Below, piece after piece: positions 1,381 to 30,400 of a DNA stretch of 36,379 bases; positions within the stretch are counted from its first letter, which is position 1; each line of letters opens with the position of its first letter. The stretch comes from Ferroacidibacillus organovorans. Its GTDB lineage: Bacteria; Bacillota; Bacilli; Alicyclobacillales; SLC66. A program made the translations under genes and the position numbers. The notes under the pieces were generated by a model. That model made no database searches. It was not told the DNA's origin and was given only the letters and a program-made list of their open reading frames with translations. The stretch spans positions 1 through 36,379 of the forward strand of contig NZ_LSUQ01000025.1 in assembly GCF_001642725.1 (NCBI RefSeq), given 5' to 3'.

Positions 1381-1409
1381 TTGATTTTTCGAAGAATTAA
1401 TCGTATTAT
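1381..1409 (+). promoter_or_regulatory. tracrRNA promoter
   Basis: TTGATT at 1381-1386 and TATTAT at 1404-1409 are separated by exactly 17 bp, a good sigma-A type promoter. The predicted start, about 1416, falls just before the region complementary to the CRISPR repeat transcript, as expected for a tracrRNA. No separate promoter is seen between the tracrRNA and cas9, so cas9 may be expressed by read-through. Confidence 0.7.
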
Positions 1410-1415
1410 TCTTTT

Positions 1416-1530
1416 GAGGGATTTATATCACATCGAGAACTGCGAGGTTGCCATAATAAGGCAATATGCCGCAGAGCACTGACCCGTAGCCTTTAATGGT
1501 TGCGGGTCATCTCATTTTATGAAATGAATC
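1416..1530 (+). ncRNA. tracrRNA of type II-C CRISPR-Cas9
   Basis: Bases 1424-1456 closely match the + strand of the array repeat (for example CACATCGAGAACT is identical, then GCGAGG against ACGAGG). They are therefore complementary to the crRNA if the array is read on the minus strand. The anti-repeat is followed by the usual tracrRNA parts: a short nexus-like stem GGCA-ATA-TGCC at 1460-1470, then a hairpin with TGACCCG (1480-1486) paired to CGGGTCA (1503-1509) and an inner GCC/GGT stem, then TCATTT/AAATGA at 1512-1527. The order and the CTGACCCG segment resemble the GeoCas9 tracrRNA as I remember it. No T-run follows the last hairpin, so the 3' end is uncertain. The RNA guides RNase III processing of pre-crRNA and loads Cas9. 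Confidence 0.85.
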
Positions 1531-1552: not shown

Positions 1553-4500
1553 ATGAGTTACCGGATTGGACTTGACGTTGGGATTACATCGGTTGGTTGG
1601 GCTGTCCTGGAACTGACAACGAGCAATGAAGGTAAAAGAAAACCATGTAGAATCATTGATCTAGGAGTTAGGATTTTTGAAGCAGCAGAAGATCGTGGGG
1701 AGTCACTGGCATCTCCACGTAGATTAGCGAGAAGTTCTCGACGCCGCTTACGCAGACACAGGCATAGAATAGCTCGAATCAAACAGTTGATGGATAGACG
1801 AGGTATTATGCCAGTCCCGGAAATCGAGAAAATGTATACGACTGCCAACTCAAAACGGCCCGATGTCTATCAACTTCGTGCCGAGGCACTGGATAGGCTA
1901 CTTAATAATGAAGAGTTTGTTCGAGTTCTCATACATATTGCACAAAGGCGTGGATTTAAATCCAACCGTAGCTCGGAGTTACTCGAGGGAGAGACTGGAA
2001 AATTGCTCAAGGCAGTGCGAGACAATCGGGAATTCCTACGCCAGTCTGGATATCGCACGGTGGGAGAGATGTTGTTTCGGGACAGCCGATTTACCCAAAA
2101 ACGCAATAAGCCAGGAGACTATCGCCATACAGTCGGGCGTGACCTGCTGCTGGAGGAGATTCGTTTAGTCTTTGCTGCACAGAAACAATTTTCTAACCCA
2201 CACGCCTCTCAAAACTTTCTTGAGGAATACCTGTCTATATTCGCTTCCCAGCGCAACTTCGATAGCGGTCCTGGAGGAAACAGCAGGTATGCTAACTTAA
2301 TCGAGGGTATGATAGGAACATGTACTTTTGAGAGAAGCCAGAAACGCGCGCCTAAAGCCTCCTATGCCTTTGAGCGTTTTAATCTTCTAACTAAGCTCCA
2401 GAATATGAGAATTTCCCACAGGAATGAGGATGGGACTCGCAAATCTGAAAACCTGTCTGACGATCAAAAGAGACTAATCATCGATTTGGCACACCAAAAG
2501 CAAGTCCTAACTTATACGGATATTCGTAAATTATTAAAATTGGATGAAAATTCCTCTTTCACTCCCTTGACTTATGGAAATGCAAGGGCTCGAAAGGAAG
2601 TGGAGAAAAGCAAATTCGTTTCGATGCCGTTTTATCATCAAGTAAAAGCATCTTGGCAAAAAAATGGGCTCGACATGGCTACTCTAACTCCAGAACGACT
2701 AGATGAATTCGGCTGGATTTTGTCAGTATGGAAAAGTGACGAAAACCGAAGAACTAAACTTGCCGCCTTGGATCTCTCATCAGAGGAAATAGAAAGCTTA
2801 CTTCCCATTGGAACTGGTAAATTTGGCCACCTATCCTTTATTGCACTTCGCAAGTTAACACCCCTGCTCGAACAGGGGTTGGACTATGATAAAGCTTGCT
2901 CATCTATTGGCTATGGCCAAAGTGAATTTCTTGGCATTGAAAAGACAAATCGCCTCCCCCCGGTTAGTCATGAACAGATTACCAATCCGGTGGTTCTGCG
3001 TGCACTTTCGCAATCGGTGAAGGTAATAAACTCGATCATCCGCGAACACGGAATACCCGAATCTGTCCACATAGAACTTGCTCGTGAGATGTCTAAGACA
3101 TTTGACGAAAGAAACCAACTGACAAAATTACGGAATGAAAACGAACGTACTAACAATAAGGTAAAACTTGAGATTGCTAATATGCTTGGTGTTTCCAAGG
3201 TGTCTCCTATTGATATTGTTAAGTTCAAGCTCTACTTACAACAGCAAGAGCGTTGTTTATACAGCGGAGAATCGTTTGACCGCTCACGATTATTTGAGCC
3301 AGGCTATGCAGAAGTGGACCACATTATCCCTTACAGTATCTCATTTGATGATAGTTACAATAACAAGGTTTTGGTTAAGACTGGCGAAAACAGGCAAAAA
3401 GGTAATAGAACCCCAGTTGAGTATCTCGGTGTGGATCCGGCTCGCTTAGCCCGTTACATCGCTCTAGTAGACAGCCTGCACTTGCCGAGACCAAAGAAAA
3501 ATAATTTACTGCGTGATCTATCAAAGGACATCGTAGAAAGAGAAACATTTAAAGAGAGAAACCTTCAGGACACCCGTTATATTACAGTGGAATTGGCTTC
3601 TCATATCGAGCGTTATCTCTTATTCGACATGGCTAATTCCACTCAGATAAAGCGAGTGGTATCCGTAAACGGTCCTGTCACGGCATTCTTTCGTAAACGA
3701 TGGGGTCTCAGAAAAGACCGTGAACTAGGAGACCTACACCATGCTCAGGATGCCGTAATTGTGGCGTGTGTTGGTGACGATCTCATACAACGTGTGTCCA
3801 AGTACGATAAATTCAAGCGGAGTTACTTAGCTAACCCCAAAGTATTTACAAAGTCATTCGACAAGCAGACGAACACGGTAAGATATGTGGACAATCAGAC
3901 TGGAGAGCTGTTTACTTGGGATAGCTTTGATGATACACACCTTGCCCTAAAGGATAATCTGTTCCCACAGGCATGGCCTCGATTTCGCGATGAACTACTT
4001 GCACGACTGTCTCCTGACCCGACTTACGCTGTCCACATGGCCAATATTTCCAACATATCGAAAGACTTAATGCCCGTTTTCGTTTCCAGGATGCCTAATC
4101 GAAAATGTACTGGACCCGCCCATAAAGAAACAGTGAAGAGTCCAAGACAACTTAGTGACGGAGTAGTCATTTCTAAAGTGAGCCTATCGGAGTTAAGACT
4201 CGATGGCGAGGGCGAAATCGAAGGATATTACAATCCTCAAGACGACACTGTGTTATACGCTAAACTTCGTCGTCTTCTACAAGAGGCAAACGGCAACGCC
4301 GAAAAGGCATTTGCCTCACCTGTATACAAGGTATCAAAAGATGGAAAAACGTCTACACTGGTTAATAAAGTAAAATTATCAGAGAAGGCCAGCTATGGTG
4401 TAATGGTCCACCAAGCACGCGGGGTGGCAACTAAACCCTCAATGGTACGTGTTGATGTATTTATAAAAGAAGGGCGTTTTTACTTAGTCCCGGTTTATGT

Positions 4501-4885
4501 TCCAGACATTGTACGCGGACTTCTTCCGACGAGAGCTATTACGCCCGGGAAGATCTATGAAGAATGGAGAGTGATTGATAGTTCTTTCAGGTTTCAATTT
4601 AGTCTTTATCATAACGACGTGATCAAGGTAAAACCCAAAGGAAGAACCGTCATTAAGTTTAAAGATGGCACAGAACGATTGCTTGGAGAAGAAATTGTCT
4701 ATTACAAATCAACAAACATAGCCAACGGAAGCATTTTTGTAAAAACGCACGATGACGCTGGGGAAGTCAAGAGTTTAGGTGCCAAAACGCTGACTATTTT
4801 TGAAAAATACAACGTCGATTACTTGGGTAGGTTGACGAAAGTTCATGACGAGTCAAGACTGGAGTTTAAGTTAAAAGGGAGATGA
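1553..4885 (+). CDS. cas9: Cas9 endonuclease, type II-C, GeoCas9-like
   Basis: RNA-guided DNA endonuclease that cuts both strands of invading DNA using crRNA and tracrRNA. The start chosen is ATG 1553 (MSYRIGLDVG) behind a GGGGGGA site at 1539-1545; an in-frame ATG at 1532 adds only seven residues. The protein has 1110 residues, in the compact II-C range. Visible parts: RuvC-I with catalytic D8; arginine-rich bridge helix about 55-80 (SPRRLARSSRRRLRRHR); REC lobe about 85-490; RuvC-II with E508 in HIELARE; HNH with EVDHIIPYS, D589 and H590; RuvC-III with HHAQDAVIVAC, H729 and D733; then the wedge and PAM-interacting region to the end. All nuclease residues are present, so it looks active. Many segments match GeoCas9 as remembered. 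cas1 starts 6 bp after its stop. No csn2 or cas4 is present, which fits II-C. Confidence 0.96.
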   Translation: MSYRIGLDVGITSVGWAVLELTTSNEGKRKPCRIIDLGVRIFEAAEDRGESLASPRRLARSSRRRLRRHRHRIARIKQLMDRRGIMPVPEIEKMYTTANSKRPDVYQLRAEALDRLLNNEEFVRVLIHIAQRRGFKSNRSSELLEGETGKLLKAVRDNREFLRQSGYRTVGEMLFRDSRFTQKRNKPGDYRHTVGRDLLLEEIRLVFAAQKQFSNPHASQNFLEEYLSIFASQRNFDSGPGGNSRYANLIEGMIGTCTFERSQKRAPKASYAFERFNLLTKLQNMRISHRNEDGTRKSENLSDDQKRLIIDLAHQKQVLTYTDIRKLLKLDENSSFTPLTYGNARARKEVEKSKFVSMPFYHQVKASWQKNGLDMATLTPERLDEFGWILSVWKSDENRRTKLAALDLSSEEIESLLPIGTGKFGHLSFIALRKLTPLLEQGLDYDKACSSIGYGQSEFLGIEKTNRLPPVSHEQITNPVVLRALSQSVKVINSIIREHGIPESVHIELAREMSKTFDERNQLTKLRNENERTNNKVKLEIANMLGVSKVSPIDIVKFKLYLQQQERCLYSGESFDRSRLFEPGYAEVDHIIPYSISFDDSYNNKVLVKTGENRQKGNRTPVEYLGVDPARLARYIALVDSLHLPRPKKNNLLRDLSKDIVERETFKERNLQDTRYITVELASHIERYLLFDMANSTQIKRVVSVNGPVTAFFRKRWGLRKDRELGDLHHAQDAVIVACVGDDLIQRVSKYDKFKRSYLANPKVFTKSFDKQTNTVRYVDNQTGELFTWDSFDDTHLALKDNLFPQAWPRFRDELLARLSPDPTYAVHMANISNISKDLMPVFVSRMPNRKCTGPAHKETVKSPRQLSDGVVISKVSLSELRLDGEGEIEGYYNPQDDTVLYAKLRRLLQEANGNAEKAFASPVYKVSKDGKTSTLVNKVKLSEKASYGVMVHQARGVATKPSMVRVDVFIKEGRFYLVPVYVPDIVRGLLPTRAITPGKIYEEWRVIDSSFRFQFSLYHNDVIKVKPKGRTVIKFKDGTERLLGEEIVYYKSTNIANGSIFVKTHDDAGEVKSLGAKTLTIFEKYNVDYLGRLTKVHDESRLEFKLKGR

Positions 4886-4891
4886 CGGACC

Positions 4892-5815
4892 TTGTCGCAT
4901 CGGCATGTTTTGATTAGTAATCCGGCTAAACTATCGAGTCGAAATGAACAGTTAGTTATTCGACCCATTGTAACTGACGCTAGTGGAGATACGTACACCA
5001 TTCCACTTGAGGACATACGATCGGTAATGCTGGAGGACAGGGCGACTATTGTCACGTCTGCCCTGTTATCTAAACTTGCGGAGTTTAACATATCTCTATA
5101 CACTTGCGACGAGAAACATCTGCCTAACGGAGTTATGATTGCCTACAACCAACACTCCCGTGCACTAAAAGTGTTGAAATCACAGTTGCACATGAATCGC
5201 CCATTTGCCAAAAGACTTTGGCAATCTATTGTCAAACGCAAGATTGAGAATCAGGCTGGGTGCTTAGAACAAGCGGGTTGTCAAGGCGGTTCCCGCCTTC
5301 GTACTCTCGCTCGTACTGTTGAGTCCGGGGATCGCTCTAATGTAGAATCCCACGCAGCAAGACTCTACTTTCAATCTTTATTCAGCGAGTCGTTTGTACG
5401 TAGAAACGACGATTTTGCTAACTCCGCAATGAATTATGGGTACGCTATTGTAAGGGGTCAGGTTGCCCGAGCGCTATGCTCTTATGGCTATCTCCCGTCC
5501 ATCGGCCTACATCATCATAGCGAGTTGAATAATTTCAACCTAGCCGATGACTTCATGGAACCGTTTCGTCCTATCGTTGACTTGCTTGTCGCAAGCGAAC
5601 TGACTGGAGACGAGCATGATGATCTCACACCGCGCCATAAGCAATGCCTATATGGCGTGCTGGCTCAAGAAGTACTTGTCAACAATCAAAAGTTTAACGT
5701 TACTGCTGCGATCGATGTAATGGTTTCAAGCTTTACTCATTCAATTTCAACCCTAGACCCAGGAGACCTGCTTCTGCCATCCATCACAGCGATTAGGACG
5801 GAGGTCTATGAGTAA
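4892..5815 (+). CDS. cas1: CRISPR integrase Cas1, type II
   Basis: Metal-dependent integrase subunit of the Cas1-Cas2 complex that inserts new spacers. Start is TTG at 4892, directly after cas9, with GGGAGA at the cas9 3' end as ribosome binding site. The 307 residues match the family length. The N-terminal beta domain begins MSHRHVLISNPAKLSSRN, typical of type II Cas1. Catalytic candidates are E152 (in VESHAARLYF), H208 (in GLHHHSELNNFN) and the acidic pair in ADDFMEPFRPIVD (residues 219-230). It overlaps cas2 by 8 bp, so the two are translationally coupled. All key motifs are intact. Confidence 0.95.
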   Translation: MSHRHVLISNPAKLSSRNEQLVIRPIVTDASGDTYTIPLEDIRSVMLEDRATIVTSALLSKLAEFNISLYTCDEKHLPNGVMIAYNQHSRALKVLKSQLHMNRPFAKRLWQSIVKRKIENQAGCLEQAGCQGGSRLRTLARTVESGDRSNVESHAARLYFQSLFSESFVRRNDDFANSAMNYGYAIVRGQVARALCSYGYLPSIGLHHHSELNNFNLADDFMEPFRPIVDLLVASELTGDEHDDLTPRHKQCLYGVLAQEVLVNNQKFNVTAAIDVMVSSFTHSISTLDPGDLLLPSITAIRTEVYE

Positions 5816-6128
5816 TTACATGAGACTTCTCGTATTGTTCGATTTACCTGTCGGCACGGGGCTCGAGCGCAAGGCAGCGTCTCGATTCCGTACTTTTCTA
5901 CTCACAGACGGCTACTACATGATTCAATTTTCATGTTACTGTCGAATTTGCGGGAGTTTCGAGATAGCCGATAAGCACGAACGTCGTTTAGAAGCAAACC
6001 TACCAGTAAAGGGGTCGGTCCGAAGTCTAGTTGTGACGGAGAAGCAATTTTCAAGAATGAAAATTCTTGTGGGAGAACACGTCTCCAATGAGGTGAAAAT
6101 TCACAGTGAGCAACTTGTGCTTTTTTGA
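5808..6128 (+). CDS. cas2: CRISPR adaptation protein Cas2, type II
   Basis: Small ferredoxin-fold partner of Cas1; in the Cas1-Cas2 complex it serves as the structural bridge for spacer integration. The ATG lies inside the end of cas1. The 106-residue product begins MSNYMRLLVLFDLPV, with the conserved aspartate at D12 after the first beta strand, then RFRTFLLTDGYYMIQFSCY, the usual second strand and helix. The ending EQLVLF fits short type II Cas2 proteins. Two cysteines in CYCRIC (44-49) are slightly unusual. It is the last cas gene; the array begins 98 bp downstream in the opposite transcriptional direction. Confidence 0.94.
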   Translation: MSNYMRLLVLFDLPVGTGLERKAASRFRTFLLTDGYYMIQFSCYCRICGSFEIADKHERRLEANLPVKGSVRSLVVTEKQFSRMKILVGEHVSNEVKIHSEQLVLF

Positions 6129-6226
6129 AAAACGACTGAGCATAACCTTGTGGATAGTTCCCAAGTTGCTTTTTAACTCAAAAAAACTGCCAAAATACCC
6201 TTCAAAAGCGGGATTTTAGCAGAGGT
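6129..6226. other. cas2-array spacer: leader-like region with array terminator on minus strand
   Basis: This 98-bp stretch separates cas2 from the first repeat. Read on the minus strand, GGGATTTT (6210-6217) pairs with AAAATACCC (6192-6200) with one bulged A; five bases later comes a run of seven T (6180-6186 on +). It therefore looks like a terminator for the array transcript, in keeping with an array read towards cas2. Type II-C systems may acquire spacers at this cas-proximal end. The only variant full repeat lies at the far end, which fits the far end being older, so the stretch may also serve as the integration leader. That last point is inference. Confidence 0.45.
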
Positions 6227-9200
6227 ATTATACCACATCGAGAACTACGAGGGAGCGATAACACACGCCCGTGGCGGTGTTGGACGGTGTTTATTATACC
6301 ACATCGAGAACTACGAGGGAGCGATAACTCTACGAACGGTTGGATGATCTCGAGGTTTATTATACCACATCGAGAACTACGAGGGAGCGATAACTCTCGA
6401 GCTCTTGAAGATAGGATAGTTCTAATTATACCACATCGAGAACTACGAGGGAGCGATAACATTGCAATCAGTAGTGTTGGGAGCATTACGATTATACCAC
6501 ATCGAGAACTACGAGGGAGCGATAACACTATGTTGAGGCTGTTAACCCTGCTTATGATTATACCACATCGAGAACTACGAGGGAGCGATAACAGTGTTGC
6601 TTCTGGCAATTCAAGATCATAAATTATACCACATCGAGAACTACGAGGGAGCGATAACTCCAGAAAACAGCTTGCAAGCATTGCAAAATTATACCACATC
6701 GAGAACTACGAGGGAGCGATAACACGACTACTACGATCCTGAGTCGGAGAAGAATTATACCACATCGAGAACTACGAGGGAGCGATAACCCAGATTGCGT
6801 GATCGCAAGTGACTGGAATATTATACCACATCGAGAACTACGAGGGAGCGATAACCCATTGATTCGGCCTTGTTTTATCGCTTCGATTATACCACATCGA
6901 GAACTACGAGGGAGCGATAACATAGGAGCCGGAACTGTAACAAACTCTTCTATTATACCACATCGAGAACTACGAGGGAGCGATAACCATGGGGTTTCCT
7001 TCTTTCGGGTGGTTTGTATTATACCACATCGAGAACTACGAGGGAGCGATAACTAACGGTTCCAAGACTGTCCACGATCTCCGATTATACCACATCGAGA
7101 ACTACGAGGGAGCGATAACACACTGACCGATATCCACACAGGCGATACATTATACCACATCGAGAACTACGAGGGAGCGATAACTTGAGACTCTCATGAT
7201 CGGTTGGTCAATGAATTATACCACATCGAGAACTACGAGGGAGCGATAACAAGATCTTTTGGGTTGTCATAGGACAAATGATTATACCACATCGAGAACT
7301 ACGAGGGAGCGATAACGTCACGCAAACAATAGGGCTTGCGGATAACATTATACCACATCGAGAACTACGAGGGAGCGATAACGGAACTGCAACAACGGCG
7401 AGTGCTACTGTATTATACCACATCGAGAACTACGAGGGAGCGATAACATAGGAGCCGGAACTGTAACAAACTCTTCTATTATACCACATCGAGAACTACG
7501 AGGGAGCGATAACTGCATCAACCCTTTGACCGTTTGCGCTACGATTATACCACATCGAGAACTACGAGGGAGCGATAACAATAACGTGGTGGCGGCGATT
7601 AACGGCGCGATTATACCACATCGAGAACTACGAGGGAGCGATAACTCGCTAGCACATCCGCACTGCTGTCTGATATTATACCACATCGAGAACTACGAGG
7701 GAGCGATAACAGCGCACGTCGAATTTGTTGCCGCGATGAAATTATACCACATCGAGAACTACGAGGGAGCGATAACCTGCATTTGTCACGCTAGGATACG
7801 CTTTGTATTATACCACATCGAGAACTACGAGGGAGCGATAACCCCCGGCTGCACGCCTTTTGCAACCCCACTATTATACCACATCGAGAACTACGAGGGA
7901 GCGATAACTACACGTTTGCGATACAAAATGCAGAAGGGATTATACCACATCGAGAACTACGAGGGAGCGATAACACCCGGCTGGATCAAGTCAAGTCCCG
8001 GCAGATTATACCACATCGAGAACTACGAGGGAGCGATAACTACAAGTAGAAAGGGGCGTGAAGTATTTGAATTATACCACATCGAGAACTACGAGGGAGC
8101 GATAACCATCTCTGTCGCTTTGTTCGCGCCAGACGCATTATACCACATCGAGAACTACGAGGGAGCGATAACTCTTCTTCGTCGACATCCAACTCTTGGA
8201 GATTATACCACATCGAGAACTACGAGGGAGCGATAACCGTGGAGGCTGTCTAGGATCGCGCGATGGCATTATACCACATCGAGAACTACGAGGGAGCGAT
8301 AACCGCATCGGCGTCAAACCCGCGGACCTTGAAATTATACCACATCGAGAACTACGAGGGAGCGATAACAGTAGGCGATCCGATGTTAAACCCCGTGCCA
8401 TTATACCACATCGAGAACTACGAGGGAGCGATAACTCTATAAAGGCGGTAACTTTTTAGTACAAAATTATACCACATCGAGAACTACGAGGGAGCGATAA
8501 CCTGAGCTCGTGGAACGTTTGCGCGTGCCCATTATACCACATCGAGAACTACGAGGGAGCGATAACCATCAAAGCGATGGGTGTTAATTTTTCGATATTA
8601 TACCACATCGAGAACTACGAGGGAGCGATAACTTGCGGTCACATCAGGAATTTACAAAGGACATTATACCACATCGAGAACTACGAGGGAGCGATAACAC
8701 CAGTCTTGAAGAAGAGATGAAACGAGCAATTATACCACATCGAGAACTACGAGGGAGCGATAACTGCGGTCTCCGTGTATTGTGTACATTGACGATTATA
8801 CCACATCGAGAACTACGAGGGAGCGATAACCGGAGAAGACAAGATAACAAATTGATCGCCATTATACCACATCGAGAACTACGAGGGAGCGATAACATGG
8901 ACAAGCAGAGTCTTTTAAGAGGTCGCATTATACCACATCGAGAACTACGAGGGAGCGATAACCGGGGCTCATCCCTCGATCAGGCAACACAAATTATACC
9001 ACATCGAGAACTACGAGGGAGCGATAACTTCATCACCGCGTCATCGACAACAATCGGCATTATACCACATCGAGAACTACGAGGGAGTGATAACAAGTAA
9101 CTTATTCTCGTCAGGATACAAGTTATTATACCACATCGAGAACTACGAGGGAGCGATAACAGATGAGGCGGGCGACCGAGTGGGTGGAGCATTATACCAC

Positions 9201-9340
9201 ATCGAGAACTACGAGGGAGCGATAACTCTCCGCGTTCGATGTTCGCGACGGACTGCATTATACCACATCGAGAACTACGAGGGAGCGATAACCTGGTTGG
9301 ACAGCAGGAAATTGTCTTTGATATTATACCACATCGAGAA
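6227..9340 (-). CRISPR. type II-C CRISPR array, 47 full repeats plus a half repeat, 47 spacers
   Basis: On the + strand each 36-bp repeat runs from ATTATACCACATCGAG to GAGGGAGCGATAAC. Full repeats start at 6227, 6293 and so on to 9257. The last repeat (9323-9340) keeps only its first 18 bp and is cut by the IS. Spacers are 30 nt, except six of 29 nt (after the repeats starting at 6623, 7084, 7347, 7610, 8137 and 8466). I saw one repeat variant: C to T at 9088. The sense strand is minus: the crRNA repeat then begins GTTATCGCTCCC, pairs with the tracrRNA anti-repeat, and ends TGTGGTATAAT. That end is an extended -10 box (TGnTATAAT), so transcription can start inside each following spacer. Two spacers are identical (6922-6951 and 7448-7477). 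Apparent reading frames across the array arise because the 66-bp unit is a multiple of three. Confidence 0.98.
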
Positions 9341-9380
9341 TGGAACAGTATCATTTTAGTTGAGTCGACAAACTCGTAAT
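9341..9380. repeat. IS3 element left inverted repeat
   Basis: Begins TGGAACAGTATCATTTTAG and ends AAACTCGTAAT; pairs with the right end at 10777-10815. The start coincides exactly with the break in the CRISPR repeat. Confidence 0.85.
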
Positions 9381-9418
9381 TCTGGACAGAATGATAAAAA
9401 AAGGAAGAAGGAATCCAG

Positions 9419-9706
9419 ATGCGAGTGTACGATAAAGAATTCAAAGAAGAAGCATTAAAATTATCTTATGAAATCGGGCCCACAGCGGCCTCCGAACAAC
9501 TGGGGGTTCCACCCACAACGCTGTACACATGGAGGGGTCAAAGCAAGAAGCATGGATCCTTGGCATTTGTAGGGAGTGGCCACCAGCGCATAGATCCGAA
9601 AACTGCCGAAATGAAAGGGTTGGAGAAAAAGATCAGGGAACTGGAATCCGCCAATGATATCCTGAAAAAGGCGTTAGCTTTTTTCGCAGAGAGCCAAAAG
9701 AGGTAG
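9419..9706 (+). CDS. IS3 transposase OrfA (helix-turn-helix subunit)
   Basis: 95 residues starting MRVYDKEFKEEALKL behind AGGAAGAAGG. The first 50 residues form the transposase helix-turn-helix (GPTAASEQLGVPPTTLYTW) that binds the inverted repeats. The C-terminal part (MKGLEKKIRELESANDILKKAL) is a leucine-zipper coiled coil typical of IS3 OrfA. The TTTTTTC heptamer in frame at 9679-9685 would shift ribosomes to the -1 frame and make the OrfAB fusion, which is the active transposase in this family; OrfA alone usually acts as a repressor. Confidence 0.92.
   Translation: MRVYDKEFKEEALKLSYEIGPTAASEQLGVPPTTLYTWRGQSKKHGSLAFVGSGHQRIDPKTAEMKGLEKKIRELESANDILKKALAFFAESQKR
9679..9685 (+). promoter_or_regulatory. 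programmed -1 frameshift heptamer
   Basis: In the orfA frame the bases read gcT TTT TTC, a standard X XXY YYZ slippery sequence. The -1 frame is open from here through the orfB start, reading REPKEVAARDLFRF across the junction, so an OrfAB fusion is possible. Frameshifting of this kind is known for IS3-family elements. Confidence 0.7.
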
Positions 9707-9717
9707 CTGCACGAGAC

Positions 9718-10605
9718 TTGTTTCGTTTTATAGGGATTCAAAAGAAAAAAGACGAAGCCAAGCACAGTGTAAAGGAAATGTGTAAGGTTTTGCATGTCAG
9801 CGAAGCCGGTTACTATCGCTGGCGGCGCACTCAAAACAGTCCCTATAAATATGATGATCTTTTGGCGAAGATCCGTCAGATTCGTGCAGAAAACAAGGAC
9901 TATGGAACGTACCGCATCTTTTTGGCCTTGCAACTGTTCCACAGCTATACCGGTACCTATTATGTGGTTCGGAGACTTTGCAAAACGCATCAGTTGATGC
10001 TGAAGAAGAACCATCATGCCAAGGGAACGACCAAGGCTGACCCTGCTGCACAAGCGAGCGAAAACCTGATAAAGCAGGATTTCACTGCCACGGCTCCCAA
10101 TCAAAAGTGGCTGGGGGATATCACGGAGATCCCCACGGCGGAGGGCAAACTGTATGTCAGCGCCGTTTTGGATTGTTATGATGGCGCGATTGTAGGATTT
10201 AAGATGGCGGACAACATGAAAGCCGAACTCTGTGTCGCGTCATTCACCTTGGCTGCCCAAAAACATCAAGCCTTTGGCATGACGTTTCATAGTGACCGAG
10301 GAAGTCAATACACCAGCAAGATGTACCGAGAAACCTTGGCCAGGTTTGGTGCAGTGCAAAGTATGAGTCATACCGGAAGATGCTATGACAACGCCAGAAT
10401 GGAATCCTTTTTTGCCACGCTGAAAAAAGAGTGCATTTACAAGGTTAAAACAGAAACATTGAAGATGGAGGTGGTCAAAAGCATGGTTTTCCGATTTGTC
10501 GAAATTCACTATAACCGGAAACGAATTTACACAACCAACGATGGTTATCCACCTTTGATGAAACGTCGTCAATATTACCGAGACCAGCTGTCCAAGGTAG
10601 TCTAA
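9718..10605 (+). CDS. IS3 transposase OrfB (DDE catalytic subunit)
   Basis: 295 residues from a TTG at 9718; in practice mostly made as the OrfAB fusion. An N-terminal HTH_21-like segment (KHSVKEMCKVLHVSEAGYY) precedes the integrase core. The DDE triad is D134 (WLGDITEI), D193 (FHSDRGSQYTS) and E229 (YDNARMESFFATLKKE); the 35 residues between the second D and the E are the usual IS3/retroviral spacing. It catalyses strand transfer of the element. No internal stop or frameshift is seen, so the enzyme looks functional. Confidence 0.94.
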   Translation: MFRFIGIQKKKDEAKHSVKEMCKVLHVSEAGYYRWRRTQNSPYKYDDLLAKIRQIRAENKDYGTYRIFLALQLFHSYTGTYYVVRRLCKTHQLMLKKNHHAKGTTKADPAAQASENLIKQDFTATAPNQKWLGDITEIPTAEGKLYVSAVLDCYDGAIVGFKMADNMKAELCVASFTLAAQKHQAFGMTFHSDRGSQYTSKMYRETLARFGAVQSMSHTGRCYDNARMESFFATLKKECIYKVKTETLKMEVVKSMVFRFVEIHYNRKRIYTTNDGYPPLMKRRQYYRDQLSKVV

Positions 10606-10620
10606 AAAGCGGGTAGCTAA

Positions 10621-10656
10621 GGTCTTGCTCCAACCATCTGTCGCAAGACCGTTTTT
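10621..10656 (+). terminator. terminator after IS3 orfB
   Basis: GGTCTTGC (10621-10628) pairs with GCAAGACC (10643-10650), followed by GTTTTTC. It lies 15 bp after the orfB stop, inside the IS. A second hairpin, ATTTTCCAGA/TCTGGAAAAT at 10695-10704 and 10713-10722, follows without a T-run. Confidence 0.7.
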
Positions 10657-10776
10657 CATTTTGTTTAGGGATTCATTCGTCAAGGTCAGGTCGTATTTTC
10701 CAGAAAAGTACGTCTGGAAAATCTCCACCTTACCCTTGACTTCACTCACAACCCCTAGGCGTAGCCATGAATCGGT

Positions 10777-10815
10777 ATTACGAGTTTCGGGACTAAACTA
10801 AATTTGACAATTCCA
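10777..10815. repeat. IS3 element right inverted repeat
   Basis: The reverse complement begins TGGAATTGTCAAATTTAG and ends AAACTCGTAAT, matching the left end over about 40 bp with a one-base gap. It sets the right boundary at 10815. Confidence 0.85.
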
Positions 10816-10926
10816 AATTTGAAAAGAGAATTTTGGGCTTTGACGCGATGTGGTCCGAGTGGTGTAAAAGGGACATCAAGCGTTTGCGTGGATTTTCGCG
10901 CTCGCATTTCTGTGGTAGAAGGTGGG

Positions 10927-14370: not shown

Positions 14371-14655
14371 TTACAGCAATGCTTTAGTGAAAAGTATCTC
14401 CAACGGTTTGCTGTGCAACAATAAACAACCTGCGTCTCGATACCCTAACTTTCTATAGAAGTGCTGAGCATCTTCATTCGACAATGTTGATGTCATCACG
14501 AGATCAAAACCTTTTTGTTTCATTTCATTTTCCCAGCAGAGAACAGCTTGCTACTCCACGCCGTTTCCTCGATGCTTCTCGTCAACCCAAATCATGTTTA
14601 TGAATGGTGTGTTGTCCCAAAAGTGCCCATACCTAATGTTTAAGAACACGACATA
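14371..14655 (-). pseudogene. fossil GNAT acetyltransferase fragment
   Basis: The minus frame from 14655 to the TAA at 14371-14373 reads NIRYGHFWDNTPFINMIWVD, then EKHRGNGVE, then a TAG at 14551-14553, then QAVLCWENEMKQKGFDLVM and NEDAQHFYRKLGYRDAG. These are the beta 3-4, acetyl-CoA loop and C-terminal motifs of a GNAT enzyme. The first 40-60 residues are missing and one stop lies in the cofactor loop, so it is dead. It is not visible as a long open frame because of the stop. It abuts the next GNAT gene (14661), which suggests that a deletion joined two neighbouring genes. Confidence 0.8.
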
Positions 14656-14660
14656 TCAAT

Positions 14661-15179
14661 TTACAAATCGATCCAAAATCGTAGTAGAACATTTCCGTTT
14701 TCTTCAAAGTAGCTTGTATCCTGAATCCCACCATTGTTTCGTATTGTCTTTTCAGAGCCTGTATTATCCTTATGGCAAATGACTAAAACTTTTTCTATGC
14801 CTAACTCACTTGCCTTTAGCAATGACAGAGCTAATAGCTTTGTAGCGTACCCTTTTCGTCTCTCAGAAGGTCGAATGCCATACCCAATGTGACCGAAAGT
14901 CGTAAGACTGTGACGGATATTTACTGACCCGACAACCTTTCGGGAGTCAGTTATCAACCAGTATGTTGAAGAAGGTATCCCTCCATCGGGCAAATACTCT
15001 ACTTTCTCGTTATTTAACAAGGATTTAATCATCTTGTGAAAATCTGCAGGGTCTTTGGAAATCACCCATGGTGCCATACCTTCCAACTCTTCACCACCAT
15101 TTACCCACTCCTCATAGAAGGAGATATACTCATTTTGTAAGTCAATAGACGGTCTGCATAGATGTACATTCTCCCCCAT
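14661..15179 (-). CDS. GNAT family N-acetyltransferase, RimJ/YjiG-like
   Basis: 172 residues from ATG 15179 with GGGGGTTG upstream. The layout is that of the larger GNAT group acting on small molecules or protein N-termini: LCRPSIDLQNEYISFYEEW at the start, TYWLITDSRKVVGSVNIRH in the middle, then YGIRPSERRKGYATKLLAL (acetyl-CoA site) and KVLVICHKDNTGSEKTIRNNG. The sequence is intact. The substrate is unknown. It is the only one of the four GNAT genes here with a normal ATG start, and it is unlike the other three in sequence. Confidence 0.85.
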   Translation of the reverse strand: MGENVHLCRPSIDLQNEYISFYEEWVNGGEELEGMAPWVISKDPADFHKMIKSLLNNEKVEYLPDGGIPSSTYWLITDSRKVVGSVNIRHSLTTFGHIGYGIRPSERRKGYATKLLALSLLKASELGIEKVLVICHKDNTGSEKTIRNNGGIQDTSYFEENGNVLLRFWIDL

Positions 15180-15673
15180 TGTTCAACCCCCAGAAAGTTT
15201 TTCCATAACCAGTTAATATCCGAAAACCAATTCCCGATATAATCCCAATATAATTGATTAGATTGTTATTTGGAGATAACCTCCTGTTAGTTCCAGAACA
15301 GTCAGATTGATCTTGTACATGATTATACACCGAAGTAATTCGTTGGGGGCGACCTCTGTCGTGTTCAAACACTGTTGCCAAAATCGTGTAGGCTTACTTA
15401 GAAAGCGGACGCGATAGTACACACGGTGTCCGTCTATAAGAAAAATTAAAAGTACATGGGTAAAATGATTTTTTGATCCAAAAGAAGCCTCGAGGATGTT
15501 AAGTTGACGATGATACTGAAAACGATTTTCTGGGGAATCAGGAGATTTGCAAGTGAAGATTATTCGTTGCATCTCTATCTGTGCGGATTATTTTTTAAGT
15601 TAAAAATTAATAATTTTTTTGGTTAATATTGAATTTTAGGTGACCTCTCTTATGATTTAACTCTCCCGTTTGT
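15180..15673. other. 494-bp AT-rich stretch without a firm gene
   Basis: Between the GNAT and histidine phosphatase genes. The only sizeable frame is on the minus strand (15258-15572, listed separately). The right part around 15590-15660 is very AT-rich (TTAAAAATTAATAATTTTTTTGG). No RNA gene or terminator is recognised. Confidence 0.5.
15258..15572 (-). CDS. doubtful 104-residue ORF
   Basis: An uninterrupted frame beginning MQRIIFTCKSPDSPEN, with FTHVLLIFLIDGHRVYYRVRF in the middle. It has no clear ribosome binding site (only GATAGAG at close range) and no recognised family. An overlapping minus frame exists at 15142-15381. It is listed because it is the longest frame in a gene-free gap; it may be chance. 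Confidence 0.2.
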   Translation of the reverse strand: MQRIIFTCKSPDSPENRFQYHRQLNILEASFGSKNHFTHVLLIFLIDGHRVYYRVRFLSKPTRFWQQCLNTTEVAPNELLRCIIMYKINLTVLELTGGYLQITI

Positions 15674-16267
15674 TCAATTAGATTCAGAAATAGTTTTATC
15701 ACCAAATGTCCCGATTTTTTCTATCCCGTTGATATTCTCATTTTTGAAGCTGAGTTTGTAGATGTCAGGCTTGGGCAAGTGTCGAAAGAAGTTAAAGTCA
15801 AATCGGGAGTCGTAGTGGTGCATGATGATTGTCATGATACCTCCATGAATCCCAATTGCCACTCGTTTACCGTTATGTTTTTGAAGTACTTCGTTCATTG
15901 CACTAATTCCACGTCGTTCAACGTCTCTAATCGATTCACCACCTGGGAGTGCAAATTCAGGTTCTATAAAACTTCTCTCGATGGCTTCTAAAGGGTCGGT
16001 GACAATGTAATCGGATTGTGCAAATTTCCGTTCTCGAAACCGTTCGTCCAAGTCGATTGTCACCCCAAGCCTGGTGGCTGTACCTTTGATCGTTTGAATT
16101 GCCCTTACGTATGGACTCGAACAAACCATTTGAATACGTTCTTTCATTAGCAATTCTGTCACAGTCAATGCATCGATACGTCCACGTTCAGAGAGCGTAC
16201 GTGTCTCTTCGTCTCCAGAGGAATAATCCGAATCAGCATGACGCACAAGATAGATTTCAGTTATCAC
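15674..16267 (-). CDS. histidine phosphatase / phosphoglycerate mutase family
   Basis: Acid phosphatase-fold enzyme, 197 residues from GTG 16267 (10 nt after AGGAG); a GTG at 16274 is only 1 nt from the same site. The RHG-type motif is YLVRHADSD with R9 and H10 as the phosphorylated histidine, followed by LSERG and SSPYVRAIQT. The second histidine is H141 in GIHGGIM. The HAD variant of the RHG motif is common in small-molecule phosphatases of Bacilli; the substrate is unknown. Its 5' end abuts the truncated ABC gene, 2 bp away, so a deletion has placed it in that operon or it has lost its own promoter. Confidence 0.82.
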   Translation of the reverse strand: MITEIYLVRHADSDYSSGDEETRTLSERGRIDALTVTELLMKERIQMVCSSPYVRAIQTIKGTATRLGVTIDLDERFRERKFAQSDYIVTDPLEAIERSFIEPEFALPGGESIRDVERRGISAMNEVLQKHNGKRVAIGIHGGIMTIIMHHYDSRFDFNFFRHLPKPDIYKLSFKNENINGIEKIGTFGDKTISESN

Positions 16268-16268
16268 T

Positions 16269-16463
16269 TCAAGCACTCTCCTTTTCTCGGTCTTGCCTAA
16301 GTAGCGTGGATAAAATTTTTAAAATGGTTGTTTTTCCCGCGCCGTTTGAGCCAAGCAGAGCGAAAATACTGCCCTGTTTCACTTCGAAATCTACACCGTT
16401 CAAGACATGGAGCTGTTTGTAGGACTTCTGAAGTCCTTTCACTTGGATTGCCAAGTCTTGCAT
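16269..16463 (-). pseudogene. truncated ABC transporter ATPase (N-terminal fragment)
   Basis: From ATG 16463 (AAGGG upstream) the frame gives MQDLAIQVKGLQKSYKQLHV, then the Walker A motif LLGSNGAGKTTILKIL, then stops after LRQDREKESA: 64 residues instead of about 300. The Q-loop, ABC signature and Walker B are all missing, so it cannot hydrolyse ATP as a transporter. The break joins it to the histidine phosphatase gene. In related operons a PadR regulator and a prefix-domain protein precede an ABC ATPase and a permease; here the permease is gone too. Confidence 0.85.
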
Positions 16464-16476
16464 ACTTTGCACACCC

Positions 16477-17343
16477 TTAGATAACCGTGACGTTTGATAG
16501 ATCGCATCCTATGCCTTTAAGCGAAGCAAAGGTCAACTTATCCAACATCGCTCCGTCAAAGCAGATGGTTTTGATGGCACGGTAGTATTTTTTGGACCAG
16601 GTAAATCCGGAAAGGAAGGATACGTTTCTTAATGTCGCACCTCGAAACGAAACGTCGTTCAGTGCAGATTTATCAAACTTGACACCGATGAAGGTTTGCC
16701 CGTCAAGACACATGCCTCGCAGATCGGAATACTTGAAATCAACGCCATGAAAGATGCAATTCTCAAAGGTCGTTTTTCTGAGGTCAGTCATGGTCAATTT
16801 GGCATCAGTCAGTTTAACATCGATGAACATTGCGCCTTTCAAACTTGACATGCTCACGTTTGTACGTACGAAAACGGATTTGCGGAAGCTTGCATCCGTA
16901 AGGTCAGAGGTGGAAAAGCTACAGTCAGTTAGATTTGCTCTGTCAAAATTGGCTTCTCGCACATCGCTGGCTTCAAATGAGCTACTGGTCAAGTCTGCGC
17001 CAGCAAAATTGGCACCGCGCAACGCGCTCGCTTTGAATTTTCCTTTGTGAGCGCTCACGCCCGCAAAGTCACTCTCTTTCAGATTGCTCGCGCTGAAATT
17101 TATCAGCACCTGACGCTCCAGTGAGTGGGAGAGGTTGGCGACCTCCTGTACCGTTTGCTCAATGTCGCCAATGCTGTCAAGGGTCATTTCAAAAGCTGTA
17201 TCATCATCCTTGCCTTCGGCTTTGAGTTCACGAAAGCGCTCCTGCAAATCGGAGAGTAGGTCAGCCTTTAGTTCGGTAACGCTTTTTATTCCATCGTAGG
17301 GCGCGAATAAATCGTTTAAATAGTTCGTCAGTTTATCATGCAT
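16477..17343 (-). CDS. HAAS-like prefix domain plus pentapeptide-repeat protein
   Basis: 288 residues from ATG 17343 (AGGAG 10 nt upstream; longer in-frame starts overlap padR). Residues 1-75 (KLTNYLNDLFAPYDGIKSVT, LLSDLQERFRELKAEGKDDD) resemble the HAAS/permease-prefix domain of PadR-linked proteins. From about 85 to 280 there are roughly 35 five-residue repeats of the A(D/N)LxX type (SALRGANFAGADLTSSSFEA), which form a right-handed quadrilateral helix. It lies between padR and the ABC fragment, as one operon. Such proteins accompany PadR/ABC export systems; a transport or regulatory accessory role is inferred. With the transporter truncated, its job may be lost. Confidence 0.75.
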   Translation of the reverse strand: MHDKLTNYLNDLFAPYDGIKSVTELKADLLSDLQERFRELKAEGKDDDTAFEMTLDSIGDIEQTVQEVANLSHSLERQVLINFSASNLKESDFAGVSAHKGKFKASALRGANFAGADLTSSSFEASDVREANFDRANLTDCSFSTSDLTDASFRKSVFVRTNVSMSSLKGAMFIDVKLTDAKLTMTDLRKTTFENCIFHGVDFKYSDLRGMCLDGQTFIGVKFDKSALNDVSFRGATLRNVSFLSGFTWSKKYYRAIKTICFDGAMLDKLTFASLKGIGCDLSNVTVI

Positions 17344-27344: not shown

Positions 27345-27482
27345 GGTAATTTAAGTGATTATGCGTGTTTTTTAAGCAAAGCGAAGGTAAGTGTTTGACC
27401 GTGATGTTATTTCGATTGGTAAAAGGATAGAAGTGGACGGGTTGGAAACCCTAACTGCACGTCGTACTGTCAGGTGATTCTT

Positions 27483-29216
27483 GTGTTTTTGAGAATGAAA
27501 TATAAAAAAAGAGCGCAACAGAAAAAAACGCTTGCACCCCAAAATCATGATGAGAATCTTGTAAATCGTCAAGAAAACCGCATAAAAAACGAAAAAAGTG
27601 GAGATTCACAAAAACCGTCTGAATTTTTCCTGCACAGTGTATTTACCAAAGAATTAGAGCCCAATCTTGCACTGTTTGAGAATGCATTAGGATCAAACAT
27701 GGATTTGTTGATTCGCAGATTTACCATCGAGTTGAATGATGACTTGATCTCCTGCGGGCTCGTTCACTTGGATGGCTCCTCTTCAAAGACGGATATCAAT
27801 GATATTCTGGCCGCTCTGATGTTTACGATAGACCAGAGCCAGCAGCGAGGAACCTCCGCATTTCGCGTCATCTATTCGCAGTGCATACCGTACGCGGATG
27901 TTGCGATCAAAAACTCCCCGCGGGAAGCAGCCGATTGGATCATCGCTGGAAACTCCATCCTCTTCCTCGACGGATACGAAAGAGTCATAGGGCTGAGTAC
28001 CCAGGCTTTTAAAGAGCGCGCCGTAGAACAATCGCAAACAGAACAAGTGATCCAAGGTTCGCGAGAAGCGTTTATCGAATCGATCGGCACGAATGTTTCT
28101 TTAATTCGCAAGCGCATGCGGTCGACCGATTTAAAGGTGCATAAGATTCAAATCGGGGAAGAGACGGCTACGAATGTCGCATTCTGTTATCTAGAGGGGA
28201 TCGCGAATGAAGCGTTGGTAAACGAAGTTAAAAAGAGACTCGAGGTGGTGAAAACAGATTCTCTCTATGGGTCGGGGTATCTTGAACAGTTTATTGAGGA
28301 TAGCCCATTTTCGCCTTTTCCTCAGGTACAAAATACGGAACGCCCGGACAAAGCGGTGGCTTCCATTCTTGAAGGGCGTGTGGCGATCTTGGTGGATGGC
28401 TCTCCCTTTTGTCTGATCGTTCCAGCGGTTTTCTCTCAATTTTATCAGACGACGGAAGACTACGATACGCGGTTTCTCATGGCCAGTTTGATTCGCGCCA
28501 TTCGTTTGATTTCATTGTTGTTTGCGCTGATCTTCCCTTCGGTCTATGTCTCTTTGATTGAATACAATCCGGAAATGATCCCAACCAAATTTGCCGTCGC
28601 GGTGGCGGGTGGCCGCGCGGGCGTTCCATTTCCCGCTATTGTAGAGATTTTTGGACTTGAGATTATCATGGAAATTCTGCGTGAAGCGACGATTCGACTT
28701 CCGCAACAAATTGGCGGGGCGCTTTCGATTGTAGGCGTTCTCGTGATCGGTGAGGCTGCTGTGAACGCAGGATTTGTCAGCCCCATTACGGTGGTTGTCG
28801 TATCGCTCACCACGATTGGTTCATTTGCGACACCCGCCTATAATGCGGCCATTGCGCTGCGCATGTTGCGATTTCCTCTTATGATTATATCGGGAATCTT
28901 CGGACTGTATGGCGTGATGGTGGGCATTATTTTAATTACAAATCATTTGATTAAGTTGGAGTCCTTCGGTGTGCCTTACTTGAGTCCGCTCCTGCCTGGG
29001 AATAAATTCGGATTTTTTGATTCGATCATCAGAGCGCCCGTATGGATGATGTCCAAACGACCAGAACAATTGCAAACAGGGAAAGCGACACGCATAAAGG
29101 TCAATCAGGAAACCCTAAAAAACCAAAAAGGGCGTCCGCTAGCTCCTCAATACCAAAATATTTCTGAGAATTCCTCTACATCTTCAACGCCAAATGATGA
29201 ATCAAATCAACCATAA
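27483..29216 (+). CDS. gerAA: spore germination protein GerAA
   Basis: A-subunit of a Ger nutrient receptor in the inner spore membrane, about 577 residues. The start is uncertain: GTG 27483 has AGGTG 6 nt upstream; GTG 27474 and ATG 27495 are alternatives. The hydrophilic N-terminal domain has the family segments ELEPNLALFENALGSNMDLL and QSQTEQVIQGSREAFIESIG with RKRMRSTDLK. The membrane part starts near LIRAIRLISLLFALIFPSVY and continues through PQQIGGALSIVGVLVIGEAA. A serine/asparagine-rich tail follows. It is the first gene of a gerAA-AB-AC operon. Confidence 0.93.
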   Translation: MFLRMKYKKRAQQKKTLAPQNHDENLVNRQENRIKNEKSGDSQKPSEFFLHSVFTKELEPNLALFENALGSNMDLLIRRFTIELNDDLISCGLVHLDGSSSKTDINDILAALMFTIDQSQQRGTSAFRVIYSQCIPYADVAIKNSPREAADWIIAGNSILFLDGYERVIGLSTQAFKERAVEQSQTEQVIQGSREAFIESIGTNVSLIRKRMRSTDLKVHKIQIGEETATNVAFCYLEGIANEALVNEVKKRLEVVKTDSLYGSGYLEQFIEDSPFSPFPQVQNTERPDKAVASILEGRVAILVDGSPFCLIVPAVFSQFYQTTEDYDTRFLMASLIRAIRLISLLFALIFPSVYVSLIEYNPEMIPTKFAVAVAGGRAGVPFPAIVEIFGLEIIMEILREATIRLPQQIGGALSIVGVLVIGEAAVNAGFVSPITVVVVSLTTIGSFATPAYNAAIALRMLRFPLMIISGIFGLYGVMVGIILITNHLIKLESFGVPYLSPLLPGNKFGFFDSIIRAPVWMMSKRPEQLQTGKATRIKVNQETLKNQKGRPLAPQYQNISENSSTSSTPNDESNQP

Positions 29217-29242
29217 ATCACCTCATGTTAGGCGGTTAGCGT

Positions 29243-30400
29243 ATGACAGATCAAAGGAACAACAGTAGTCAGTCAATGAAACAAGAAAGTGAGAAACCGA
29301 AAGAAGCGTCTGTGATTCAATTAGCGATGTCGATCGGGACCGCGATCATTGGGGTGGGTTTGTTAGCGTTTCCGAGAATCACGGTGAATTATGTCATGAC
29401 GGCCGCACCCGCGGCGACCGCGATGGCCGTACTCTTTGTGCTTGGCATTGGAATACTTGTCGCGTACCTCGGAAGCCAATATCCTCAGCTTACGATGTTT
29501 GAATACGGGGATCAGTTGCTCGGTAAATGGGTGGGGTGCATCATCCATGCGCTGCTGAGTTTTTACTATCTTGAGCTGGCTGCTCTCGCTACACGCGAGT
29601 TCGGGGAAGTGGTGGTAACGTCCGTTTTGCAACGTACACCCGTCGAAGTAACGGTGCTGACGATGCTCATTCTCGCAGCGATTGCATCACGAAATAATGT
29701 TTTTGTCGTCATACGGATTCTCACGTATTACATGCCATGGGTGTACTTTCCAGTTATCGTCATTGTGTTGCTAACGCTCAAAGGAGGGAATGAACTAAAC
29801 CTTCAGCCGTGGTTTCACATCACCCACCCTATGAGTTTACTAAAAGCTGTTTTGACAATTTCGGCGCTGTTTCAAAACATCCTGATCGCAGGAATGTTTA
29901 TTCCATACATGATTCATCCAGAGCGAGCGTGGAAGGGCATTTTGATTGGCGTGGGTGGGGCGGGCTCACTCTATGTCATCTTAATGCTCGCAACGCTTGG
30001 GGTGTTTGGAACTGAGGAGATCAAACACATTCTCTGGCCGACACTTGATTTGGCAAAAACCGCGTCACTGCCCGTATTTTTTATTGAGAGGCTGGATCCG
30101 ATCTTTGTCGCGGTCTGGGTGACCGCTGTTTTTACAGGGATCCTCTCCTCATACTATTGTTCAATCCGCGGCATGGCGCACGTTTTTCAACTTTATGACC
30201 ATCGGAGCATGTCGATCTTTATCTTTCCCGTGATTTTTGTAATGTCTCTCTTGCCGAAAAACATCGCCAATCTATACACGATTGTTGAGATTGTCGGCCA
30301 ATTCGGCATTATCCTCACGATGGGCTACCCTGTTCTCCTTGTACTCATTCACCTCTTGAAAAAGGTACTTAAAAAAAAGAAGGTTTTGCGTCATGCGTAA
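29243..30400 (+). CDS. gerAB: spore germination protein GerAB
   Basis: B-subunit of the Ger receptor, 385 residues, an APC-superfamily membrane protein with about ten spans; in GerA receptors this subunit binds the amino acid germinant. ATG 29243 has AGGCGG upstream. The first span contains QLAMSIGTAIIGVGLLAFPR, the unwound helix typical of APC-fold proteins. The charged tail ends LLKKVLKKKKVLRHA. It overlaps gerAC by 8 bp, so the two are coupled. The germinant is unknown. Confidence 0.93.
   Translation: MTDQRNNSSQSMKQESEKPKEASVIQLAMSIGTAIIGVGLLAFPRITVNYVMTAAPAATAMAVLFVLGIGILVAYLGSQYPQLTMFEYGDQLLGKWVGCIIHALLSFYYLELAALATREFGEVVVTSVLQRTPVEVTVLTMLILAAIASRNNVFVVIRILTYYMPWVYFPVIVIVLLTLKGGNELNLQPWFHITHPMSLLKAVLTISALFQNILIAGMFIPYMIHPERAWKGILIGVGGAGSLYVILMLATLGVFGTEEIKHILWPTLDLAKTASLPVFFIERLDPIFVAVWVTAVFTGILSSYYCSIRGMAHVFQLYDHRSMSIFIFPVIFVMSLLPKNIANLYTIVEIVGQFGIILTMGYPVLLVLIHLLKKVLKKKKVLRHA

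Follow-up and report, generated by a model that had tools for sequence, protein, structure and literature searches.

What does the compact Cas9 of Ferroacidibacillus organovorans recognise beside its targets, and is the locus that encodes it complete? The gene lies in a stretch of 36,379 nucleotides (contig NZ_LSUQ01000025.1 of assembly GCF_001642725.1; hereafter the window), together with cas1, cas2, a predicted trans-activating CRISPR RNA (tracrRNA) and an array of clustered regularly interspaced short palindromic repeats (CRISPR). As far as sequence can tell, this is a complete and ordinary type II-C CRISPR-Cas locus, and its nuclease joins the clade of AtCas9, the enzyme of Alicyclobacillus tengchongensis, as a new member of moderate divergence. 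The residue at its predicted base-reading site suggests that a purine is the most likely preference of this Cas9 at base 5 of the protospacer-adjacent motif (PAM), that is, N4R.

The cas9 reading frame is uninterrupted from position 1553 to a stop at 4883-4885, giving 1110 residues, and is the sole match to this Cas9 in the host genome. A longer in-frame ATG exists at 1532, and a G-rich, ribosome-binding-like stretch stands just 5' of 1553. The original prediction, made from the letters of the window, described a compact Cas9 with D8, E508, H590, H729 and D733 intact. All of these, as well as D589 and N613, are invariant across 36 aligned full-length proteins (that of the window counted; 41 loci minus L009, L025, L027, L034 and L035, which are partial, split or far). 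We take D8, E508, H729 and D733 to belong to RuvC, and D589, H590 and N613 to HNH. The HNH domain is inserted in a split RuvC domain with all catalytic residues present, as is characteristic of a type II Cas9; the NCBIfam Cas9 model TIGR01865 covers residues 3-1092 of the 1110 (E = 1.6e-228), and Pfam recognises HNH_4, RuvC_III, Cas9_RuvC and a domain of the recognition (REC) lobe. The bridge helix, an arginine-rich helix at about residues 53-82, and the C-terminal domain are complete in the sequence and in a predicted model, just as had been claimed, with low model confidence at 47-58. This AlphaFold model, built with 27 sequences, has a mean predicted local distance difference test score (pLDDT) of 77.9 and a predicted template modelling score (pTM) of 0.52, on account of which its domain arrangement was kept out of the evidence. 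Its best fold matches are ThermoCas9, Nme1Cas9, GeoCas9 and BlCas9; the AtCas9 structures are absent from its fold-match lists. The IVYWREL fraction of the protein (0.426, with 0.421-0.441 in five proteins of AtCas9 or GeoCas9 type and 0.395-0.408 in three others) is at most suggestive of thermostability.

By sequence, the best-matching solved structure is 21dz (1197 bits over residues 1-1108), followed by GeoCas9 and ThermoCas9 (786-793 bits) and Nme1Cas9 (651 bits). Since 21dz carries alanine at positions 8, 617 and 640, the changes reported for dead AtCas9, dAtCas9 (PMC12634846), we take it to be AtCas9, to which 21ea, 9wac and 9wad presumably belong as well; the protein of locus L040 contains residues 993-1142 of 21dz without a single difference. 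Proteins of AtCas9 type are 51-53% identical to the window Cas9 over their full length, and somewhat longer (1146 residues in L040, 1147 for AtCas9 in a table of PMC10707453). The phylogeny with type II-C proteins that had been proposed as a check, run as a quick tree of 41 proteins (805 columns, PAM-reading domain removed; 11 of 38 inner branches weak), groups the window Cas9 with three AtCas9-type proteins to the exclusion of the GeoCas9 type, with a Shimodaira-Hasegawa-like approximate likelihood ratio test (SH-aLRT) value of 100. By these sequence comparisons, AtCas9 is the nearest characterised relative and GeoCas9 is more distant. The label "GeoCas9-like" was therefore apt for a compact type II-C Cas9, but not for its closest kin: L074, whose C-terminus equals that of GeoCas9 as far as printed, shares 37-46% identity by region and 30% in the tip of the PAM-reading domain. 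Near-identity to a characterised Cas9, named beforehand as what would speak against the claim, was not found. GeoCas9, ThermoCas9, AnoCas9 and CaldoCas9, from Geobacillus and relatives, are likewise of type II-C, with about 1082-1087 residues and the same fold; Nme1Cas9, Nme2Cas9 and their orthologues share the architecture and the PAM-reading site, with 34-39% identity between Nme1Cas9 and the window Cas9 in structural alignments.

Full-length relatives occur in three of the 58 other genomes of the order (G022, G027 and G029; 53% identity), with fragments in two more; L038 (G002:C114) and L042 (G057:C86), each from a genome of the order other than the host's, are partial Cas9 matches that lie on short contigs. 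On the possible thermophily or acidophily raised in the original prediction, this shows only that the host shares its order with G022, whose Cas9 is AtCas9 or nearly so. Among the 17 other genomes of the family there is no full-length cas9 relative and one fragment; in the class, seven of 398 genomes match at E <=1e-150, the host's own counted. GTDB contigs hold 36 matching loci with a best segment identity of 44%, a figure from which records near that of the window may be left out. Literature searches turned up no paper on this Cas9 among their top-ranked titles.

What, then, argues for a purine? In a gapless alignment, the tip motif reads YYKSTN(1055)IANGS in the window protein, YYKTID(1017)SANGG in GeoCas9, YYQTID(1017)SSNGG in ThermoCas9 and YFAGAD(1089)ISGAT in the AtCas9-type protein of L040. 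Asparagine 1055 thus takes the place of D1017 of GeoCas9 and ThermoCas9 and of D1089 of AtCas9, whose PAM tip is 32% identical, so that the aspartate of the AtCas9/GeoCas9 specificity group is missing from the base-5 site. Aligned through L023 (with HRGT), the site corresponds to H1024 of Nme1Cas9, a number counted by hand. D985, considered as the counterpart of Nme1 Q981, was dropped, the alignment pointing to P998 instead. The Nme PAMs are N4GATT (Nme1) and N4CC (Nme2), and among Nme1Cas9 orthologues aspartate at the site goes with C at PAM base 5, histidine or asparagine with A or G (PMC9433092). GeoCas9 (N4CRAA) and ThermoCas9 (N4CVAA, N4CCCA; table in PMC10707453), both with D1017 and with C at base 5, fit this rule; for AtCas9, the PAM is given as CNNA and RNNA (PMC12634846) or as N4CNNN and N4RNNA (PMC10707453). 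With N1055 in place of the aspartate, a purine at base 5, N4R and not N4C, is therefore predicted.

The PAM was also approached through the spacers, as the original prediction had proposed, with all 47 as one array query against phages, plasmids, 59 genomes of the order and 398 of the class; up to five first-look candidates were scored per genome of the order (five of ten in the host's own) and up to two per genome of the class. Only spacer 8 found a protospacer that we trust. It matches dnaB of the relative G034 at 29 of 30 positions, with the flank CACGATACAA and A at base 5, and reaches 27, 26 and 26 of 30 in a further three dnaB genes, with the flanks CTCGG, CGCGG and CACGG and G at base 5; a fifth match lies in G007. 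The host's own dnaB, also with G at base 5, matches at only 24 of 30 and is for that reason an unlikely source; a phage- or plasmid-borne dnaB homologue is the likely one, although no foreign source turned up in these searches. All five dnaB genes encode DnaB motifs resembling YRDDYYDP[ED][ST]EK (YRDDYYDPESEK or YRDDYYDPETEK). Base 5 is complementary to the third position of the codon for the tyrosine that precedes the arginine, so a purine is to be expected beside any dnaB with such a motif. The phage search returned eight records at E <=10 (best E 0.3), of which, by their coordinates, H2-H7 run from spacer into repeat and H8 covers 25 nt of spacer 34; the plasmid search returned three, one of them (73% over 103 nt) probably another array. 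Some match at E <=1 occurred in 36 of the 59 genomes of the order (own counted), mostly to arrays or short pieces, and the class search added a single new place, in G238, with no spacer within six changes. A match of spacer 31 in a G030 gene read as LysR type (26/30, flank CTCGAAAA) was rejected owing to a stop in that frame of the spacer; G030 also has a second, weaker place. Bacillus phage Jayan matches spacer 34 at 25/30 with E 3 (flank AGTAGCTC), which was put down to chance. Among the four candidate spacers, base 5 is a purine for 8, 31 and 34 and T for 30. The check thus yielded one dnaB family with a purine and did not establish the PAM; the difference in the tip holds, and the earlier suggestion that the C-terminal region may read a different PAM is supported by N1055 and weakly by this one protospacer family.

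Arrays of relatives were compared with phages in the same way, giving one record for L015, ten for L017, four for L006 and one for L003, whereas the L010 and L060 arrays and 18 spacers of L005, L011 and L013 found no phage match. The one usable protospacer of L015, which has asparagine at the site, is a 28/32 match to a 32-nt spacer in a faecal phage record, with the flank GCAAGATA and G at base 5. For L017, a gut clostridial type II-C array at 14509-16850, three records are usable: two spacers match the Microviridae KT264812.1, MG945475.1 and MG945386.1, with the flanks TGCCGCT (28/30, two phage records) and TTGTACT (27/30), from which an N4RCT PAM is possible although the base-5 residue is aspartate. 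Rejected were the L017 records H13, H14, H18 and H20, with no spacer at fewer than seven changes (H15-H17 are close relatives of H14), and the L006 record H23, which matches no spacer. For G027 (L039, asparagine at the site), the assembly yielded no array. In the last 60 bases (L084) of MT836720.1, a record labelled as unverified phage, a 46-nt end stretch matches the L003 repeats in 17 pieces, so a CRISPR repeat probably forms the end of this record.

Among 41 proteins the base-5 site is aspartate in 17, asparagine in 13, glycine in six, histidine in four and lysine in one. These states need 15 changes on the tree, whereas shuffled labels need 20.2 on average. L039 and L040 (N versus D) are 99-100% identical up to residue 935 and 78% identical in 1020-1080; L016 and L017 share 94-99% outside the PAM-reading domain and 62% in the tip; the GeoCas9-type L074 and L077 share 93-96% outside and 77% in the tip; and, less sharply, L002 and L006 (D versus N) share 85-91% versus 79% in the tip. 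Such near-identical proteins with divergent tips suggest that the tip is exchanged locally or changes very fast. Precedent is provided by GeoCas9 and CaldoCas9 (N4GNMA), whose bodies are near-identical and where an altered PAM-reading domain changes base 5 (PMC8100143; PMC5681539); L073, L077 and L078, with histidine at the site, may be of the CaldoCas9 type. The fuller reading, an AtCas9-clade nuclease with an N4R, perhaps N4RTA, PAM from a lineage that exchanges its PAM tip much faster than the rest of Cas9, falls in our estimate just short of an even chance.

The locus around cas9 is read as a complete type II-C locus because the models for Cas9, Cas1 and Cas2 match, the array is present and the pairing of tracrRNA with the repeat exceeds that of shuffled sequences. 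The intergenic spaces are narrow (6 nt between cas9 and cas1, an overlap of cas1 and cas2, 98 nt between cas2 and the array), the cas9-cas1-cas2 order, judged by resemblance, is that of the three AtCas9-type relatives, and neither csn2 nor cas4, both absent from type II-C, appeared in a Pfam scan of 27 further open reading frames (ORFs) of the window. Within the predicted tracrRNA, the anti-repeat (1422-1457, oriented as the repeats are on the plus strand, with seven mismatches in 36) is followed by a nexus stem and a hairpin (1480-1509) with a T-rich tail. Its pairing with the repeat in CRISPR RNA (crRNA) sense is predicted at -48.6 kcal/mol, against -22.0 for the best of 500 mononucleotide shuffles, which at the level of sequence gives the complementarity expected of type II; the fold of 1423-1520 has a z-score of -6.37. 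No Rfam family was found in the window at the gathering threshold. The promoter proposed for this RNA is argued from its position, not from its match, since sigma-70-like sites are as frequent in shuffled sequence (10.3) as in the region (10).

Of the 47 spacers, a count given correctly in the original prediction, 46 lie between full repeats and one (9293-9322) precedes the truncated repeat at 9323-9340. There are 46 distinct spacers, as 6922-6951 and 7448-7477 are the same; these copies, eight spacers from each other, are the only redundancy in the array. The full repeats are identical in 46 of 47 cases, with one change in that at 9059-9094. In crRNA sense the repeat, GTTATCGCTCCCTCGTAGTTCTCGATGTGGTATAAT, lies on the minus strand and ends in an extended -10 box, TGGTATAAT, present at the end of all 47 full copies; the repeat of G158/L061, a relative with a GeoCas9-type protein, also ends in TGTGGTATAAT. 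We assign crRNAs to the minus strand because only then is the tracrRNA complementary, does the repeat end in the -10 box, and does a terminator-like hairpin lie beyond the cas2-side repeat. This leader hairpin with its seven T (minimum free energy -16.3 kcal/mol for 6171-6227, without a shuffle control; missed by a hairpin scan limited to loops of 3-8 nt) reads as an intrinsic terminator of array transcription. A promoter inside each repeat and transcription towards cas2 are features of the type II-C family, in which the repeat transcribed last adjoins the newest spacer and an extra repeat stands at the oldest end (PMC12080349). By this polarity, the newest spacers would adjoin cas2 and the repeat severed by an IS3-type insertion sequence (IS), after 18 nt at 9340, would be the oldest; it keeps the -10 box and lacks the 5' half of the crRNA-sense repeat. 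The cut in this spacer-less extra repeat should put an end to the extraneous crRNA, which makes it a natural counterpart of the extra repeats that were mutated in PMC12080349. The element carries transposase and rve domains and imperfect terminal inverted repeats; no target-site duplication was seen in the sequence flanking its ends, so a deletion may have followed the insertion. In the mechanism we propose, Cas1-Cas2 would add spacers at the cas2-proximal end, each repeat would carry a promoter for minus-strand crRNAs, these would pair with the tracrRNA, whose gene lies just 5' of cas9, and the dual RNA would guide Cas9, whose HNH and RuvC domains would cut protospacers with a 3' PAM read mainly at base 5 and beyond.

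Several points weigh against a purine preference. The protospacers of spacer 8 amount to one observation, as they lie in homologous chromosomal dnaB genes; spacer 30 matches two haloarchaeal plasmids weakly, at 27/29 (flank CGCATTCC, E 0.07) and 26/29 (flank CGCATTCA, E 3), with T at base 5, matches we do not trust owing to host and E value; and in IMG/VR, where eight exact scans (22 nt of spacer 8 and seven degenerate 24-nt patterns of two spacers each) covered 15 of the 46 distinct spacers, there was no exact match. The residue rule was measured in orthologues 59.6-70.4% identical to Nme1Cas9, not in this clade (PMC9433092), and here it is imperfect: in L017, where aspartate would predict C, the protospacers of two spacers (28/30 and 27/30) show G and A at base 5. 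Also AtCas9, with aspartate, accepts R when base 8 is A (PMC12634846). A functional Cas9 with a relaxed, AtCas9-like PAM (N4C, or N4R with A at base 8), for which the change from D to N alone would not be decisive, is the likeliest rival, the closest relative already including R at base 5 and L017 indicating that other tip residues matter. We nevertheless consider it rather unlikely, given that the tip (1020-1080) is only 32% identical to that of L040, whereas identity in the REC and nuclease parts reaches 52-62%, and that base 8, where AtCas9 is reported to need A with R, is C, G, C and T in the four flanks of spacer 8, though dnaB is probably not the true source.

A GeoCas9-type N4CRAA PAM, with the specificity of the known thermophilic enzymes, would accord with the resemblance of YYKSTNIANGS to YYKTIDSANGG, but N replaces D precisely at the base-5 site and no C stands at base 5 beside the spacer 8 protospacers, which makes it highly improbable. 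We think still less of a locus that is non-functional in vivo through its damaged array end or lost expression: the insertion at 9341-10816 does truncate the distal repeat, yet this repeat is at the oldest end and no listed spacer was lost with it, and cas9, cas1, cas2, the tracrRNA candidate and 47 full repeats are intact. A preference for a purine at base 5 thus stays the reading we favour.

Table 1. Features of the type II-C locus and its flank in the window.
Feature	Position	Strand	Description
Sigma-70-like promoter, proposed for tracrRNA	1381..1409	+	TTGATT - 17 nt - TATTAT, 9/12 consensus bases
Predicted tracrRNA	1416..1519	+	anti-repeat, nexus stem, terminator-like hairpin; both ends inferred
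cas9	1553..4885	+	1110 aa; AtCas9 clade (type II-C); N1055 in the PAM tip
cas1	4892..5815	+	307 aa, type II (cas1_NMENI, TIGR03639, 303.6 bits, cutoff 120)
cas2	5808..6128	+	106 aa (TIGR01573, 75.7 bits, cutoff 24.5)
Leader	6171..6226	-	adjoins cas2; minus-strand hairpin, then seven T
CRISPR array	6227..9340	-	47 full 36-nt repeats and one 18-nt truncated repeat; 47 spacers of 29-30 nt
Spacer 8	6724..6753	-	sole spacer whose protospacer is credible: 29/30 in a relative's dnaB, with 3' flank CACGATACAA
IS3-type insertion sequence	9341..10816	+	1476 bp; limits by match to a second genomic copy (95% identical)

Further downstream, 27474-31592 holds an ordinary gerA-type spore germination operon (GerA, permease, GerAC), and the other scanned ORFs at 11-36 kb belong to ordinary chromosomal families or to none.

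If the purine preference is true, a compact purine-5 Cas9 from the order of the thermostable AtCas9 would widen the targeting range of the thermophilic type II-C toolbox. The natural set of D, N, H and G at one site would offer a direct test of the Nme1Cas9 base-5 rule outside the group in which it was established, and the near-identical pairs described here would add cases of the fast, localised change of the PAM tip already known for GeoCas9 and CaldoCas9.

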